IMG/VR virus record: IMGVR_UViG_3300047189_000004
Coordinates: 1-20,713 of that record
Source of the DNA: a virus
DNA length: 20,713 nucleotides
Direction: 5' to 3' (one strand)
Below are positions 5,703-20,713 of the stretch, piece by piece (positions within the stretch are counted from its first letter, which is position 1; every line of letters begins with the position of its first letter). The position numbers and the translations under genes were made by a program. The notes under the pieces are model-generated. The model did no database searches. It was not told the DNA's origin and saw only the letters and a program-made list of their open reading frames with translations.

Positions 5703-6040
5703 AGCTCCACGCTCACGAGGTTCTGCTTTGCCGTGTCTCGGCTGTCGTTGCTACAGATGACCTGCGCGTCGACACTCAGAAGTGAATACGTGTGCCCGTC
5801 GAAGGAGATCTCGTCCTCGCCGTCCTTGAGCCCTGCCATGAGCGTGGTGTACTGTGCCGCTCCGACAACGTGGAGGACGACACGCCGCTTGTAGTAGCCC
5901 ATGCCGCGCATGGAGAGAGCTTCCCGAAGACCCGCCACGATGGAACCCACCGGCGTCCAGACGTCGCCGGGCGTCGTCTCTTCGACGTACGTGCACGCGC
6001 CCGTCCTGGTCGTGTCGTTTGGGAGTGCGTAGCTGCTCAC
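5690..6040 (-). CDS. Distal-tail-type protein following the tape measure
   Basis: A 116-aa protein. GTG at 6040 is favoured: it lies one base after the tape-measure stop and is preceded by TCGGAGGGTGAC (SD spacing 5 nt). An in-frame GTG at 6061 would add seven residues. Sequence: SSYALPNDTTRTGACTYVEE, with VGSIVAGLREALSMRGMGYY and SFDGHTYSLLSVDAQVICSN further on, and a C-terminal NLVSVELWRP. In siphophages the gene between tape measure and hub usually encodes the distal tail (Dit) protein, but 116 aa is short for Dit and no signature was recognised. Structural tail role inferred from position. Confidence 0.5.
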   Translation of the reverse strand: MSSYALPNDTTRTGACTYVEETTPGDVWTPVGSIVAGLREALSMRGMGYYKRRVVLHVVGAAQYTTLMAGLKDGEDEISFDGHTYSLLSVDAQVICSNDSRDTAKQNLVSVELWRP

Positions 6041-6041
6041 G

Positions 6042-7661
6042 TCACCCTCCGAAGGCGGCACTGCCGCCGAGCGCTGTCATGACCTTCGCGAAGACCAAGT
6101 TGCCGAGGGTGTCTTTCAGCTTGCCGAGGGCCGACTGGTCAACCTTGATGCTGGTACCATCAATTTTGAGCGTCAGTTGCAGTTCTGCTTTTTTGACCTT
6201 CACAGCACCCGACAGGCTGCCAATGTACGAGCTCAGGCCTGTGACGTTGACGCCGGACACGTTGATGGGTGACCAGGCTGCCGCCGCCTTGGCGTCTTTC
6301 GCCGTCTTGTCTGCGTACTTCTTCTCAATCTCTGCCCGCCTGGCTGCCGATGTTTCTGTGATCAGCACCTTGTCATAGCCCGCCTTTCTCCAGGCTGCCA
6401 CGTCCAGATCAAGGTCATGGAGTTCCTTCTGCTTCTCTGTATGCGTCGCGTCATAGAGCTGATGTTGGAGGTCCAGATTACCTGCGATCTGATCAGCGGT
6501 TGCGGACACCGGGACGGGAACAGGATTGGGAGTGTATCCGGTATGTGCCTGCTGGCCGGCGACAGTTGCATACCAGGGAGCGGTGCTGCTCGAGGGCACA
6601 ACGGGCGGGACGTAGTACTTCCCGCCAGGGCTGGTCCCATACGTCGGGTTGAATGCGTGGAGCAGCTTCTCTCGCTCAGCAGTCCATGCATCGGAGTTCG
6701 CGCCCTGGACTGCTGCAATGCCAACCGTCAAGGGTAGAGCTGCCAGGCCTAGGAGTTTCGTGAGAGCAGCCCAACCCGTGCCAGCAGTCAATAGGTCGAT
6801 AGCGGTCTTGAGTCTGGCAATGCCGACGATCGCCACTGCTGTCGCGCCGCCAATCGACAGGATCCCTGCTGCTGCCGACACGGTGCCTGTGATCAACCCT
6901 TTCATAGCGTCGGGCATGTCGTTAAACTTCTCGAGGAGGGTCGTGAGTCCGTGTGCAGCGCTGGTGAGTTCTGGGATCAGGGTCTTGCCGAATGACTTAC
7001 CCAGCTCGGTCAGGGCGCTTGTGAGTTTCTTGCCTGCGCCTTCCATGCCCGACATCTTCTCGCCTGCCTGTCCTGCGTAGACGCCCAGCTGTCGCAGCAC
7101 GTCATTGAAGTCAACTGTGCCGTCTTTGTTCTTCGTGATGATCACGCCGTAGCGCTGGAACAGGCCGACGTTGCCCGTCATGGCTTGTGCCGACGCCCTG
7201 AACCCCTGTTGAAGATCCATGCCAGTGACGGCGCTCAGGTCCAGCAGCCGGGGCAATAGGGCCTCAGCCTGTACTTCGGTCAAGTGCATCGTCCCAGCGA
7301 AGGTCAAGGCTGCCATCTGCGTTTCCTCGGAGACGGTTGTCTGTTTGCGTAGGCTGTTGGTTAGAGTCTCGATCCGGGTCATGGCAGCTGTCGAATACTG
7401 GCCCGTGTTCTGGAGACCAAGAGCCAGACTCTTCAGTGCCGTCTGATTTGAGGCGCTCTCCTTGACCATAAGGGCGAGCCCGGTGGTAAGTGCCGCACCC
7501 GCGACGACGGCAGCCGTGCCGACTGTTTTCAGAGCCGACAACTGGTCGGCTTGTGACTTCTTGTCGGCTGCTGCCTGTTTGTCGCGCAGGTTCTTCAGTG
7601 CCGCTTCTGCGTCACCGGTATTGATGACGACATTGCCCTGAATATCGAACTCTTCAGCCAT
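6042..7661 (-). CDS. Tail tape measure protein
   Basis: A 539-aa protein from ATG 7661, which overlaps the chaperone-fusion stop as TGATG. It sets tail length and is threaded through the tail tube. Evidence: length, position directly after the frameshifted chaperone, an Ala/Lys-rich helical N-terminus (DAEAALKNLRDKQAAADKKS), then hydrophobic helices at about 45-66 and about 255-325 (SAAAGILSIGGATAVAIVGI) and the tape-measure-like middle 'LTFAGTMHLTEVQAEALLPRLLDLSAVTG...GNVGLFQRYG'. After a Pro-rich linker (VPPVVPSSSTAP) the C-terminal third is charged and helical. At roughly 1.5 angstrom per residue this predicts a short tail of about 80 nm or less. No lytic domain is visible. Confidence 0.9.
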   Translation of the reverse strand: MAEEFDIQGNVVINTGDAEAALKNLRDKQAAADKKSQADQLSALKTVGTAAVVAGAALTTGLALMVKESASNQTALKSLALGLQNTGQYSTAAMTRIETLTNSLRKQTTVSEETQMAALTFAGTMHLTEVQAEALLPRLLDLSAVTGMDLQQGFRASAQAMTGNVGLFQRYGVIITKNKDGTVDFNDVLRQLGVYAGQAGEKMSGMEGAGKKLTSALTELGKSFGKTLIPELTSAAHGLTTLLEKFNDMPDAMKGLITGTVSAAAGILSIGGATAVAIVGIARLKTAIDLLTAGTGWAALTKLLGLAALPLTVGIAAVQGANSDAWTAEREKLLHAFNPTYGTSPGGKYYVPPVVPSSSTAPWYATVAGQQAHTGYTPNPVPVPVSATADQIAGNLDLQHQLYDATHTEKQKELHDLDLDVAAWRKAGYDKVLITETSAARRAEIEKKYADKTAKDAKAAAAWSPINVSGVNVTGLSSYIGSLSGAVKVKKAELQLTLKIDGTSIKVDQSALGKLKDTLGNLVFAKVMTALGGSAAFGG

Positions 7662-16495: not shown

Positions 16496-17059
16496 TCACT
16501 GTTGCCCTTTGAGTTTGTCGACCAGGCTGAGAGCAGATGCCAGGTCGGAGATGGACGCCTTGCTGAGGTCAACCTTGACGTTGCCCTCCGGCTTGTCACC
16601 GAGTGCTACCTTGCCAACGTCCTGGGCGATGCGAACCGCCTGTGCGATGTCCTTGGCAGCCCTCTGGATCACCACCTGGTTCCCGAGCTTGTCCAGGACC
16701 TTCTGCCCTTCCAGCTCGTCGTCGACCAACGTAAGGATGCGGTGTGCGTAGTCCAGACACGTGGTGTCGAAGGTGGCGCCTTCATTGGCGACCATTTCCG
16801 ACTTCTTTTGAGTCGTCTGCTCATCGACGCGGGCAAGGAACCGTTCGCGCTGGACGTCCCATTGTTCCTTCTTGACTTTAAGACACATCGTCGTGGGATT
16901 GATGCCGTACTTATGGCACAAATCTGCCTGGCTAACCGGAGACGTGGCGTTTGTGTATTGTTTGTGTATTCTTTGCCAATCGATAGTATTACGAGTATGC
17001 TTGACAGCTGCTTTCTGTACCTTGATTGACTTCTTCGGGCTGACAGGTAATTGTCCCAT
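16496..17059 (-). CDS. Terminase small subunit
   Basis: A 187-aa protein from ATG 17059 that recognises the packaging start on viral DNA. Basic N-terminus (SPKKSIKVQKAAVKHTRNTI) followed by a helix-turn-helix (VSQADLCHKYGINPTTMCLK), a middle helix pair (TTCLDYAHRILTLVDDELEG), and a C-terminal about 50 residues 'VRIAQDVGKVALGDKPEGNVKVDLSKASISDLASAL'. HTH plus helical oligomerisation core is standard for phage TerS. It lies directly before the large subunit. Its ATG overlaps the stop of a candidate 44-aa ORF as TGATG. Confidence 0.8.
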   Translation of the reverse strand: MGQLPVSPKKSIKVQKAAVKHTRNTIDWQRIHKQYTNATSPVSQADLCHKYGINPTTMCLKVKKEQWDVQRERFLARVDEQTTQKKSEMVANEGATFDTTCLDYAHRILTLVDDELEGQKVLDKLGNQVVIQRAAKDIAQAVRIAQDVGKVALGDKPEGNVKVDLSKASISDLASALSLVDKLKGQQ

Positions 17060-17193
17060 CAGGGCAGCTCCAATAGATTCACCCAGTGCGGGATCGAGCT
17101 GCGATGTCCGCGCAGCTTAAGCCGGAAGGAGGTAAAGGCCGTGCTCAATGAGCCAATCCCGCGGGTGTATGAGGAAAGTCGACGAATTCGCAC
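17059..17193 (-). CDS. Candidate 44-aa leader ORF before small terminase
   Basis: GTG at 17193 lies 6 nt after an AGGAGG SD; the frame runs 44 codons and stops at TGA 17061-17059, overlapping the terminase ATG (TGATG). Product RIRRLSSYTRGIGSLSTAFT followed by SFRLKLRGHRSSIPHWVNLL: basic, no known family. The SD and GTG lie wholly inside the 3' arm of the 15-bp inverted repeat, so in the transcript they would be hidden. It could be a translational leader that couples terminase synthesis to unfolding of the hairpin. A short ORF of this size may be chance; the overlap geometry is the support. Confidence 0.4.
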   Translation of the reverse strand: MRIRRLSSYTRGIGSLSTAFTSFRLKLRGHRSSIPHWVNLLELP

Positions 17194-17269
17194 TACAAGC
17201 CTCCTGCCGAGACGTCACGGGTAGCACCGGCCAAACCGTGGACATCTGTGGTGACAGGAGGCTTGTAGT
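17192..17269 (-). promoter_or_regulatory. 15-bp perfect inverted repeat, possible RNA switch or packaging/protein site
   Basis: ACTACAAGCCTCCTG (17192-17206, plus strand) and its exact reverse complement (17255-17269) are separated by 48 bp. On the minus-strand transcript, U.G and C-G pairs extend the helix at both ends. The downstream arm carries an AGGAGG SD and the GTG start (17193-17191), so the folded RNA would block that initiation site. Location just ahead of the small terminase also makes it a candidate for a pac/cos-type or repressor binding site. Confidence 0.6.
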
Positions 17270-17351
17270 ATCCAGGAGGATATGATTGACGGCACGTATC
17301 ACTACGCGACATCATACGCGCGCTTGCATGGTCCGTACCTTTCGTTCTCAA
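17193..17351 (-). CDS. Candidate 52-aa ORF spanning the inverted repeat
   Basis: TTG at 17351 lies 6 nt after TAGGAGG; the frame runs 52 codons to TAG 17195-17193, which overlaps the GTG of the next micro-ORF (TAGTG). Product starts MRTKGTDHASARMMSRSDTC and contains PPGYYKPPVTTDVHGLAG; no family. Translation through both arms of the inverted repeat would melt it. The coding capacity is weakly supported (rare TTG start, no homology known); listed because start, SD and stop geometry fit the tight packing of the operon. Confidence 0.35.
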   Translation of the reverse strand: MRTKGTDHASARMMSRSDTCRQSYPPGYYKPPVTTDVHGLAGATRDVSAGGL

Positions 17352-17385
17352 ACTCGACCTCCTAGATCGGTTGTGCGTCTATAGT

Positions 17386-17979
17386 TTACGCGCTCAGTTT
17401 GGCATTGACAAGCCCCTCCAATGCGCTATTAACGTCACAACCCTCGCCGAACGACGGCTGTTTCCCTGGACGTGTTCCACGTTTCAGCACATACATCGCC
17501 TTCGCATGGCAAGCTTCGAGAAACGTTGGGTAGGTGCCGATGTAGTGCTTTCCGACTCGTACCTGGAAAACTGAGTCAATATTCCAGATACTGGGAACGC
17601 CTGTCGCCCGGACCACGGGCTTACGGCGTTTATGTTCTGTGGCTTCCTCCGCCTGGACCTCCGCTGGATCGCGATGGTGCCACCATCCAATTCTAACAGC
17701 GGGACCGAAGGATTCCCTGCCGACTTCGTAGAGCAGATCATATTTGCTACTCAGTCCGATGACGACGGCGCCGACAAACTCGCTGTGTTCTTCCTTGTGT
17801 AACTGTCGACGAAGAGCACGTACGACATTCCGTGCGTTGCCTCCTTGAAATCGTAACCTTGTCAGCCGTCCGCCCCTCGTGATTGTCTTGAAGCCCAACA
17901 CGTGCAAGGGCCTCTTTGACTTTGAGATTGTACTCTCGTACTTCGTCCGCCTCTCGTTCGTCCACGGCTTTCCATTCAT
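17386..17979 (-). CDS. AP2-domain-like DNA-binding protein
   Basis: A 197-aa protein, ATG at 17979 with SD AAGGAAGAGAT. The N-terminal half is basic and beta-rich (LTRLRFQGGNARNVVRALRR). Residues about 128-170 match the AP2 DNA-binding fold: GVPSIWNIDSVFQVRV, GKHYIGTYPTFLEACHAKAM, ending LKRG, i.e. three strands carrying 'f.vrv..khyiGtyptf.EA..A' and a helix. AP2 domains in phages occur in homing endonucleases and in stand-alone regulators. No HNH or GIY-YIG nuclease motif is visible here, so a regulator or a nuclease remnant is possible. It lies between a small coupled gene and the terminase, with a 127-bp gap upstream (17980-18106) in which I see no further gene. Confidence 0.6.
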   Translation of the reverse strand: MNGKPWTNERRTKYESTISKSKRPLHVLGFKTITRGGRLTRLRFQGGNARNVVRALRRQLHKEEHSEFVGAVVIGLSSKYDLLYEVGRESFGPAVRIGWWHHRDPAEVQAEEATEHKRRKPVVRATGVPSIWNIDSVFQVRVGKHYIGTYPTFLEACHAKAMYVLKRGTRPGKQPSFGEGCDVNSALEGLVNAKLSA

Positions 17980-18106
17980 ATCTCTTCCTTCCCGGTGCCT
18001 GACACCAGCTTGCCCTAGCCCTTCATTTCAGTGGCTCAGATGCAGCGCTTTTCGTTGGCCGGTTTTCCATTCGTGGCGCTGCGGTCGTACTCCCTATCCT
18101 ACTGTT

Positions 18107-18340
18107 CTATTGCTCAGAGGGCCTATACCCACGTTCAAGGAAGGCCCTGATCTCCGTAAGACACCCGGCGTCGTAGAGGGTGCCACTCTGCGGGAAGAAG
18201 GCGTAGCGTCGCCAGGGTGAGTACCACTTGATGACGCCCAAGATGGCGAGCCCCTGGAGGTTCCTCACCGCCCAGATGCGCGTCTTGCCAGAACTGCTAT
18301 GCCCGAGCTCGTCAAAGCGCAGGTACGTCTTCTCACTCAT
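18107..18340 (-). CDS. Small conserved-type 77-aa phage protein
   Basis: ATG at 18340 overlaps the stop of the Cys-rich gene (ATGA); a longer frame to 18481 is only its shadow. Sequence: MSEKTYLRFDELGHSSSGKT, then 'RIWAVRNLQGLAILGVIKWYSPWRRYAFFPQSGTLYDAGCLTEIRAFLERGY'. The core 'w.V.n..g...LG.IkWy.pWRrY.FfP...t.yda.CL.eI..Fl' looks like a small family common in phages and metagenomic contigs, of unknown function; I recall the pattern but cannot name a domain. Tight coupling suggests joint function with the Cys-rich protein. Confidence 0.65.
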   Translation of the reverse strand: MSEKTYLRFDELGHSSSGKTRIWAVRNLQGLAILGVIKWYSPWRRYAFFPQSGTLYDAGCLTEIRAFLERGYRPSEQ

Positions 18341-20713
18341 GATGTCACGTGCCCTTCGCAGTCGACGGCTTTGTGGTGATGCGCTCCGCCTGACGTCTTG
18401 CAGGGTGAACAACAATTCAGCGTGTTGTCCAGGCGACAGGCCTTCTGATGCTGACAGGTGTAACAGAGACAGTGTTCGCATTCGGGTTCATCCTGGCAGA
18501 CCTCTGAACGACGACCCGAGGGAATCTTTGCGACCGCGGCAGCCGACGTGTCGACGAACCGCGCATGCCCGAGCAGCGGCCACCGTTTTCTTGGATCCTC
18601 GAGATAACCCTGCTCGTTCTTGTGTCCCTTCGAACCTTCAGGCTTCAGCCAGACATGTGTGTACCAGGTCGGGCCGCTCACGTCCTCTGCTTCTTCAATA
18701 GCCACCAGCTGCTCGACTTGTTCGAGGGTGAGGACAATAAGCTGCTCATCGGCGTACGTCTCGTTGTACATCGCGCCGAAGGTGTCCTCTACAATCTTCT
18801 GCCCCAAGGGAACGACCTTGCCGTCCTCGGCCTTCCAGCCGGTGACGCCATAACGGATAATCGGCTCGTCCTTGCTGACCAGCTTGCGTCGTGGGTGTCG
18901 AAAGTCATCCCAGAGATCGCCGTAGATCTGCCAGCCGGCGTCCGTTCTCTCCACACGTGTCACCTTGCGAATGTCGTACACAAAGCCTCTCGCGTGCAGT
19001 GGGGTCACCAAGTCACCCACCTTGACCAGGTCCGGAACGTCCGGGTCGGCAGCCGGCTGCGTGACTACGTCGACTGTGGCCACTTCCTTCTTAGCGTACC
19101 ATTCACAGCCGTACTGTCCTGTCTCCATCGGGTAGCCGGGGATATTGCATGAGGTGTCGCAGCTGCCGGGTCCGTACTTGCAGGAGTGACAGAGACAGGG
19201 TCCGCCTTCGCCATTGTATCGGAGCTCGCATGCTGTTTCAGGGCATGGGCCTTGTCCGGGTGCGTAGATATCCGCGGGGAAGGTGGCTTTGTCGATCCAG
19301 TGTTCACAGTCCTTGATGATCGCCGGGTAGGGCTTGTGGTGATGTGGATGCTCGAGCGTGCAGATGGAACAGATATGGTAGGGCTCGTCGCCGTTCATCG
19401 CGCAGTTCTGATACGCTCGGCCACAGGTAAGGCACTTGCACTCACCACAGAATTGCCGCACATACCGCTGAAGAGTGACCATGTGCTGCTGTTCCATGGG
19501 CAACTGACTCTCCGTGTTTCCCAGGACGTCGACAGTGAGAGCAGCCTTGCGCCCACAGAGGGTTGTCGGCTGGAGCTCGGGCTTTCCCAAGCACTGGTCA
19601 CAGCCACAAGGCGGACAGTTCGCCCATTCCTTGTCGGTGTAGTTCAGGTGCGCTTGGTTCAGGCCACAGGTCTCGCAGTCACAGTGGCTGCAGGTGTCGG
19701 CGTTGCTTCCTGGGAGAGGGTTGTTGTCATAATCCGCGCGGGTGAGCTTCGGCTGCTTCTTCGGTTTCGGTTGCTTCGTCGCTTTGACGGGCACGGTCGG
19801 CTGTTCCTCGCCATCCTTCGCCCGGAAGTCAGGACATCCTCCCATCTTGCCGCCATGCTTGGAACAATAGATCGGTCCCTCGCAGGTGTGACAACTCTCT
19901 CCATTGTTGGCGCACTTCGGGCAGAGACAGTCGGAGCATGTCCAGCCTTCGCCCTCAGCTTTCGAGTACGCAGGACACTCCACAGTGTGAGCGTGATAGT
20001 GGCCACAGACACTTTTGTTCATCCTTTTGCATTGACCGCACGTCTCCTGGTTGATGCAGCTATGACAAAGACAGGGGCTTGTTCCTAGACAACCGTGAGG
20101 AGCGAGCGCCTCGAGGTCGCGATTCCTATTCGCCCTAGACGTCGCCCTCGACTTCTTCGCCTTGGCGGGCTTCGCCGTAAGTTCGACAGGAGCAATGGCC
20201 GTAGGCGCCTTCTTCCGGTGTCGCATGAGTAGCCGCCACTTCTCGAAGGGCTCGTAGACTCCAATACCATTGCGGTCGTTCTGTTTGGCGACGGCAGCGA
20301 GCGTCCAAGGCGTGTGATTGATGCGCCAGTAGAACTCTTCAGTCGATTCTCCGAGGTCGTAGCGGGAACCGTTCTCGACGCCCTGGATCAGCCCCTTGTT
20401 ATATGCCTGAGCGAGCAACTCTTTCGAGAAGAATGGTGCTATCTCATTGGCTGTGGGTGTGCTGACTCTCTGCAGATACATGATGAGCCTGTCCTCTGCC
20501 AGCTTGTCGAACTTGTCCGTTGCCGGCCAGTAGCCGACGCAGCGCTCGATGGTACATGGAGGATCCTGCCGACAATCGGGCTTGCACATGCAGCCGTACA
20601 GCGGGCAGCTCCCGCCCTGGTACTCGCCACAGTTCCGGCAGTCGCACATCCAGGGAGATTCGAGCTTCTCACATGGCAGATGAATTTCTTTCAGATGTGA
20701 CACGTCCTTCAAG
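18337..20713 (-). CDS. Large cysteine-rich protein with eight CxCxxC motifs (5' end outside window)
   Basis: At least 791 codons, open at the right edge; the first possible start in view is TTG 20712, so the true start is probably outside. About 60 Cys. CxCxxC motifs lie at residues about 23-28, 214-219, 262-267, 344-349, 369-374, 425-430, 506-511 and 748-753, four of them extended as CxxCxCxxC (e.g. CSHCDCETC, CGECKCLTC). Each opens a module with further CxxC and His/Cys, often ending D/E-C. Between modules lie Lys/Pro/Ala linkers (residues about 170-200 and 305-325), an N-terminal helical region (70-165) that may be winged-helix-like, and a Cys-free domain (about 560-735) with DLVKVGDLVTP and EQLIVLTLEQVEQLVAIEE. 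Metal (Zn or Fe-S) binding is expected; function is unknown. It ends ATGA with the 77-aa gene. Confidence 0.8.
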   Translation of the reverse strand, partial: LKDVSHLKEIHLPCEKLESPWMCDCRNCGEYQGGSCPLYGCMCKPDCRQDPPCTIERCVGYWPATDKFDKLAEDRLIMYLQRVSTPTANEIAPFFSKELLAQAYNKGLIQGVENGSRYDLGESTEEFYWRINHTPWTLAAVAKQNDRNGIGVYEPFEKWRLLMRHRKKAPTAIAPVELTAKPAKAKKSRATSRANRNRDLEALAPHGCLGTSPCLCHSCINQETCGQCKRMNKSVCGHYHAHTVECPAYSKAEGEGWTCSDCLCPKCANNGESCHTCEGPIYCSKHGGKMGGCPDFRAKDGEEQPTVPVKATKQPKPKKQPKLTRADYDNNPLPGSNADTCSHCDCETCGLNQAHLNYTDKEWANCPPCGCDQCLGKPELQPTTLCGRKAALTVDVLGNTESQLPMEQQHMVTLQRYVRQFCGECKCLTCGRAYQNCAMNGDEPYHICSICTLEHPHHHKPYPAIIKDCEHWIDKATFPADIYAPGQGPCPETACELRYNGEGGPCLCHSCKYGPGSCDTSCNIPGYPMETGQYGCEWYAKKEVATVDVVTQPAADPDVPDLVKVGDLVTPLHARGFVYDIRKVTRVERTDAGWQIYGDLWDDFRHPRRKLVSKDEPIIRYGVTGWKAEDGKVVPLGQKIVEDTFGAMYNETYADEQLIVLTLEQVEQLVAIEEAEDVSGPTWYTHVWLKPEGSKGHKNEQGYLEDPRKRWPLLGHARFVDTSAAAVAKIPSGRRSEVCQDEPECEHCLCYTCQHQKACRLDNTLNCCSPCKTSGGAHHHKAVDCEGHVTS

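Follow-up and report, generated by a model that had tools for sequence, protein, structure and literature searches.

The locus and its genes

The window, by which we mean the whole stretch of DNA that was analysed, is a 20.7-kb part of an uncultured tailed phage. Up to its edge runs a long minus-strand frame that codes for a protein made of small cysteine-rich modules (below, the Cys gene and the Cys protein). In window coordinates, the gene, its parts and the two genes that follow it are:

18337..20712, minus strand: Cys-module protein, 791 of its 857 codons within the window
In the first 66 codons, outside the window: header MRRAPVANGWAGSLFPEPI, read from L002:9803 onward
20521..20661, minus strand: module M1 (CDCRNC...GCMCKPDC...ERCVGYW), also in the related phages G003, L026 and L028
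20209..20517, minus strand: Cys-free helical segment, 84-87% identity in G003, L026 and L028; its name "HTH" is a label only
20128..20187, minus strand: linker 1, VELTAKPAKAKKSRATSRAN, a breakpoint relative to G003
19954..20091, minus strand: module M2 (CLCHSC...CGQC...C...HYHAH...CPAY)
19801..19953, minus strand: module M3 (CSDCLCPKC...CHTC...C...CPDF), widespread, two copies in L045
19729..19794, minus strand: linker 2, VPVKATKQPKPKKQPKLTRADY
19498..19722, minus strand: module M4, with two CxCxxC motifs (CSHCDCETC, CPPCGCDQC)
19267..19449, minus strand: module M5 (CGECKCLTC...CSIC...HPHHH...CEHW)
19087..19257, minus strand: module M6 (CPETAC...CLCHSC...CDTSC...CEWY)
18508..19041, minus strand: Cys-free segment S, 178 aa, matching no known family
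18349..18492, minus strand: module M7 (CEHCLCYTC...CSPC...AHHHKAVDCEGH)
18107..18340, minus strand: 77-aa gene (MSEKTYLRF...), whose start overlaps the stop of the Cys gene (ATGA); present only with the P22-type terminase
17386..17979, minus strand: 197-aa gene, without a family match, which follows the Cys gene in ten loci with both terminase types

The Cys-rich frame continues beyond the window edge; the TTG at 20712 does not mark its beginning. The same phage is represented by the record IMGVR_UViG_3300049913_000009 (36,770 bp), which matches the window at 100% over 18,812 bp and at 99.9% over 1,906 bp. In this record the true start is an ATG 66 codons further out, which overlaps the stop of the preceding gene, of 68 aa, in an ATGA. 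As the Cys gene thus overlaps both its 68-aa and its 77-aa neighbour, the run is probably translationally coupled.

The complete protein counts 64 Cys and 33 His among its 857 aa. Its pI of 6.2 makes it mildly acidic, and its sequence shows neither a membrane anchor nor a signal-like N-terminus. An earlier, sequence-only reading of this DNA had described a cysteine-repeat protein with His clusters, and both observations are borne out. We count 61 Cys and eight CxCxxC motifs inside the window, far above the 5,000 composition-preserving shuffles (mean 0.33, maximum 4), and the clusters HYHAH, HPHHH and AHHHK are all present. The extended motif C-x2-C-x-C-x2-C occurs five times and not four times as had been stated (shuffles: mean 0.02, maximum 2).

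Genomic context

On the same strand the neighbourhood holds the small terminase (terS, phrog_51), the large terminase (phrog_38), the portal (phrog_104), a head protein, a P22-type coat protein and the tape measure. The sequence-only reading had placed the Cys gene next to packaging genes, which is misleading. While terminases and portal are indeed nearby, the 77-aa and 197-aa genes intervene before terS, and most relatives carry an HK97-type terminase that is unrelated to the P22-type one. The P22-type terminase accompanies the Cys gene in the window phage, G004, L003 and L051, the HK97-type in G002, L006, L026, L028, L031, L045, L050, L053 and L066. Since the Cys gene is found with two unrelated terminase types, it belongs to the block of genes before the late genes and not to the packaging module. 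Directly before it, nearly all loci have a gene with a 3D domain, which is a domain of cell-wall enzymes; in the window phage, a lysozyme-like variant takes this place. The link with the 77-aa gene, for which a survey of co-occurrence had been proposed, does not extend beyond the four phages with the P22-type terminase.

A gene in this place might be a regulator of the late genes, and we consider this explanation plausible by position but unlikely on the whole, as it fits poorly in size, charge and variability. In the loci with flanks available, the Cys gene comes after early or lysis genes and before those of the terminase, late regulators of Staphylococcus phages hold the same position (PMC13123087), and a Cys-free helical segment exists. 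However, those regulators (RinA, Ltr) are basic and have a length of only about 130 aa (PMC13123087), whereas the Cys protein has 857 aa, a pI of 6.2 and modules that are swapped. Only 4 family members have the helical segment, and a regulator of one promoter should not exchange its domains wholesale among close relatives. Moreover, the 197-aa neighbour could fill the role just as well. Late regulators of this kind have direct-repeat binding sites beside the late promoter; a search for direct repeats gave no array between the Cys gene and terS and one 13-nt pair in 16900-18700, and sites of another type may be present.

Database searches and structure models

That the protein fits no known family, as had been suspected, agrees with all our searches. 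Whole-protein, module and profile searches of Pfam, PHROGs, NCBIfam, PADLOC and PDB gave nothing significant, and none of the relatives has a significant Pfam match. With each module run against Pfam at E up to 10, there was no match to a described zinc-finger or zinc-ribbon fold; in Pfam and PADLOC, none of the modules matched a known binding domain or anti-defence protein. A tblastn search of 50,697 phage and 72,556 plasmid records gave zero matches, and for the modules against the phages there were zero even at E 10. Genome contigs searched with the tail alignment yielded no relative. The only PDB sequence that a module profile reached was that of retroviral Gag zinc knuckles, through the Cys spacing and with a non-significant E-value of 7.3.

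The helical segment between M1 and linker 1 has no match in PDB or Pfam, and its helices are seen in a low-confidence model only. As a DNA-binding domain it found no confirmation in profile, Pfam and PDB searches. Structure prediction, which the sequence-only reading had recommended, did not yield a usable model: the two AlphaFold2 models have mean pLDDT values of 29.5 and 44.2, which is too low for use.

The sole hint at a host comes from the large terminase. Its only match among genome contigs (47%, C-terminal part) is L054, that is, JALSSH010000088.1, a 4.5-kb contig of an Ardenticatenia (Chloroflexota) MAG; this hint is too weak for the host to be named from it. The module profile gave no match in 301 Chloroflexota genomes, an empty answer that carries no weight.

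Module shuffling in the protein family

Scans of IMG/VR revealed relatives of the Cys protein on about 15 contigs. We delimited the modules by local alignment of the family proteins, which gives a pool of at least 20 pieces. Every complete protein opens with a 19-residue header that contains the 11-residue motif G[WY]x[GD]SLFxEPI. The 13 complete proteins draw on this common pool in 11 distinct module orders, and most end in one of two alternative tails. The first tail (M4-M5-M6-S-M7) is found in the window phage, L003, L006, G002, G003, L026, L028 and L031, and truncated in G004; the second (P-M3-N) is found in L045, L050, L051, L053b and L062; L066 has neither. Apart from the truncation in G004, each tail stays intact across its carriers, and the stretch between header and tail varies even among close relatives.

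Related phages have gained, lost, replaced, moved and duplicated modules, with breakpoints at a linker or at the header. For example, the window phage has M2-M3 exactly at the site of one linker in G003; a segment that lies near the N-terminus in the window phage (segment L) lies near the C-terminus in L045; and L045 has M3 twice. L045 and L050 share 89% from 295 nt upstream of the start through A-B-C and 81% in the tail P-M3-N, while their middle parts of about 1.5 kb and 0.4 kb consist mostly of unrelated modules. The linker KPAKAKK(QPK) is found repeatedly at block boundaries with near-identical DNA, and this DNA (AAGCCxGCCAAGGCGAAGAAG, with few changes) is likely to be an exchange joint. 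The header, too, is an island: L045 and L062 agree there over 73 nt (nt -9 to 64), and the sequences on either side are unrelated.

Two further rearrangements were seen. In L053 (3300025846_000006), three tandem ORFs at about 5774-6001, 5983-6996 and 6948-7292 each open with a version of the header motif (GYVDELFP, GWCGSLFDEPI and GYVGELFP); two of the three are just 68-99 aa long. At the C-terminus of L008/G004, a deletion fuses the Cys gene out of frame into the 77-aa gene, with the loss of segment S and M7.

One could read the gene as a landing pad for modules, where short accessory genes that bear the header are fused or separated by recombination; the protein would then be a loose set of small functions without a single role. 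The joints visible at the DNA level, the many module orders, the short proteins of L050, L051, L053 and L066 and the tandem header ORFs of L053 are what one would expect in that case. On the other hand, both tails stay together in their carriers, and the first of them is under strong purifying selection. We think this explanation a serious, though improbable, alternative.

Similarity between the modules

Next, we asked how similar the modules are to each other. Module profiles, with M4 left out, were compared by HHalign, and 40 shuffles of the columns with the Cys positions fixed served as the null. The HHalign probability was 93.8% for M3-N, 90.2% for M2-M7 (39 columns), 86.2% for M2-M3 and 72.3% for M5-M7 (36 columns), with at most 1 of the 40 shuffles scoring as well in each case. 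M6 scored above the shuffles against M2 and M7, yet just 7-8 columns were matched. In the same profile test, the similarity of M1 and B was no higher than that of the shared Cys core, and comparisons of single module sequences with the Cys positions fixed were marginal. Because several profiles match beyond the cysteines and M3 is duplicated in L045, we conclude that part of the array consists of duplicates of one ancestral unit. Expansion by internal duplication, as the sequence-only reading had suggested, is thus supported for M2, M3, M5, M7 and N, which align beyond the CxCxxC core, the opposite of what would have refuted that reading. The remaining modules may be unrelated or too diverged.

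Selection on the tail and the header

The Cys gene is under strong purifying selection. In the 450-codon shared tail, pairwise dN/dS among seven phages is about 0.12-0.22; comparisons with the truncated tail of G004 reach 0.25. Of the 35 cysteines compared in this tail, 33 are invariant, as opposed to 219 of the 413 other residues (p = 4e-7), which is consistent with metal binding. Taken together, the excess of motifs over the shuffles, the purifying selection and the invariance of the cysteines show that the gene is real and that its cysteines matter.

For the header, we compared 12 sequences. Codons 9-19 have a pS of 0.68 and a pN of 0.14, and pN on the flanking sides is 0.35 and 0.45; the residues G9, S13, L14, F15, E17, P18 and I19 never change. 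The low pN relative to pS and to the flanks shows that the header is more than a DNA joint. Its SLF is reminiscent of the motifs that bind sliding clamps; these usually carry a Gln, which is absent here, and we give the likeness no weight.

The 64 Cys and 33 His in 857 aa could also suggest a metal buffer similar to metallothionein, or a redox protein, with the task of shielding phage assembly or keeping metal away from the host. Such a protein has no need for conserved residues other than Cys, for ordered module types, for long Cys-free segments or for a header that looks like a docking motif. Furthermore, shorter relatives with 17-39 Cys persist, and we consider a buffer very unlikely. As for a nucleic-acid-binding hub, which the sequence-only reading had offered as an option, the mildly acidic pI of 6.2 speaks against general nucleic-acid binding.

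Comparison with known phage proteins

The polyvalent proteins of phages and conjugative elements combine, within a single chain, domains of very different and mainly enzymatic activities (Iyer et al. 2017, PMC5512222). Like the Cys protein, they are large proteins of mobile elements whose architecture is strongly variable among related elements, and the phage ones are encoded near the late genes (PMC5512222), just as the Cys gene lies a little way upstream of the terminase region. Unlike them, the Cys protein has no enzymatic domain in Pfam, PHROGs, NCBIfam or PADLOC and consists mostly of small Cys-rich units. To our knowledge, a constant header and linker joints are not part of the description of polyvalent proteins.

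By analogy with the phage polyvalent proteins, which are also large, modular and near packaging genes (PMC5512222), the Cys protein could be packaged into the virion and enter the cell along with the DNA when infection begins. We see only a small chance of this: the searches showed neither an enzymatic domain nor one of virion type, such as MuF, fused to it, and the gene is tied to the block before the late genes and not to one set of virion genes.

Another Cys-based phage protein is Com of phage Mu, a single small RNA-binding zinc finger (PMC6483171). Both proteins use small, Cys-based and probably zinc-stabilised units; the Cys protein, however, has many modules, and in Pfam and the PDB profile search it shows no sequence match to known fingers.

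A possible function

The explanation that we favour, tentatively and at somewhat less than an even chance, is a soluble cytosolic scaffold of small zinc-stabilised interaction modules, which is recruited through its header and shuffled to fit host factors or defences. The protein would resemble beads on a string, each bead having about 40 residues with 6-9 Cys at fixed spacing and often His, and probably keeping its shape with one or two zinc ions. Flexible linkers of Lys, Pro and Ala would lie between the bead groups. By its constant motif G[WY]x[GD]SLFxEPI, the protein may dock on a partner that is common to all these phages or to their host, while the variable beads would have host proteins as their ligands, with defence or regulatory factors the likeliest among them. 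Through recombination in the DNA of linkers and header, beads would be swapped between phages and in this way track changing hosts.

Pairs of the type C-x2-C and C-x-C at fixed spacing are typical metal ligands, and it is from the Cys spacing that we infer zinc and metal-stabilised folds, as we infer docking from the conserved header. Phage proteins that swap domains fast usually face the host, for example tail fibres and anti-defence proteins. The conserved ends, swapped middles and purifying selection of the Cys protein resemble proteins that face a changing partner, which is why we favour a scaffold aimed at host factors, with an arms race as the presumed cause of the swapping. Module swapping is by itself no proof of an arms race and might also be neutral.

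The scaffold might go further and be a cassette system at the level of protein, in which a fixed docking header and the DNA joints (header and KPAKAKK linker) exchange metal-stabilised modules, so that each phage has its own set of inhibitors of host factors or defences in one polypeptide; we consider this rather doubtful.

The Cys protein, by contrast, is soluble and built for the most part from tiny Cys modules; its exchange joints can be seen, its docking-like motif is under selection, and it is absent from the family libraries that we searched. Should the modules bind host factors, every one of them could guide work towards a phage-host interaction in uncultured bacteria, and the header could serve as direct bait for the partner they have in common. 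In addition, the family provides module combinations made by nature with which the construction of such proteins can be studied.

Other observations at the locus

The ends of the record IMGVR_UViG_3300049913_000009 join within the Cys gene, with a few bases overlapping, and the window spans the join. Since the window reads across it, the 36.8-kb record, although classed as linear, is probably a complete circle or else permuted.

Between the 197-aa gene and terS lies a strong RNA hairpin (window about 17191-17272, minus strand; -52 kcal/mol, z -6.2), which has no Rfam match. It is kept upstream of terS in all four phages with the P22-type terminase (the window phage, L003, G004 and L051), with paired changes in the stem, three of them compensatory pairs between the window phage and G004. 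The hairpin may act as the leader of terS, as a site for packaging or as a terminator.
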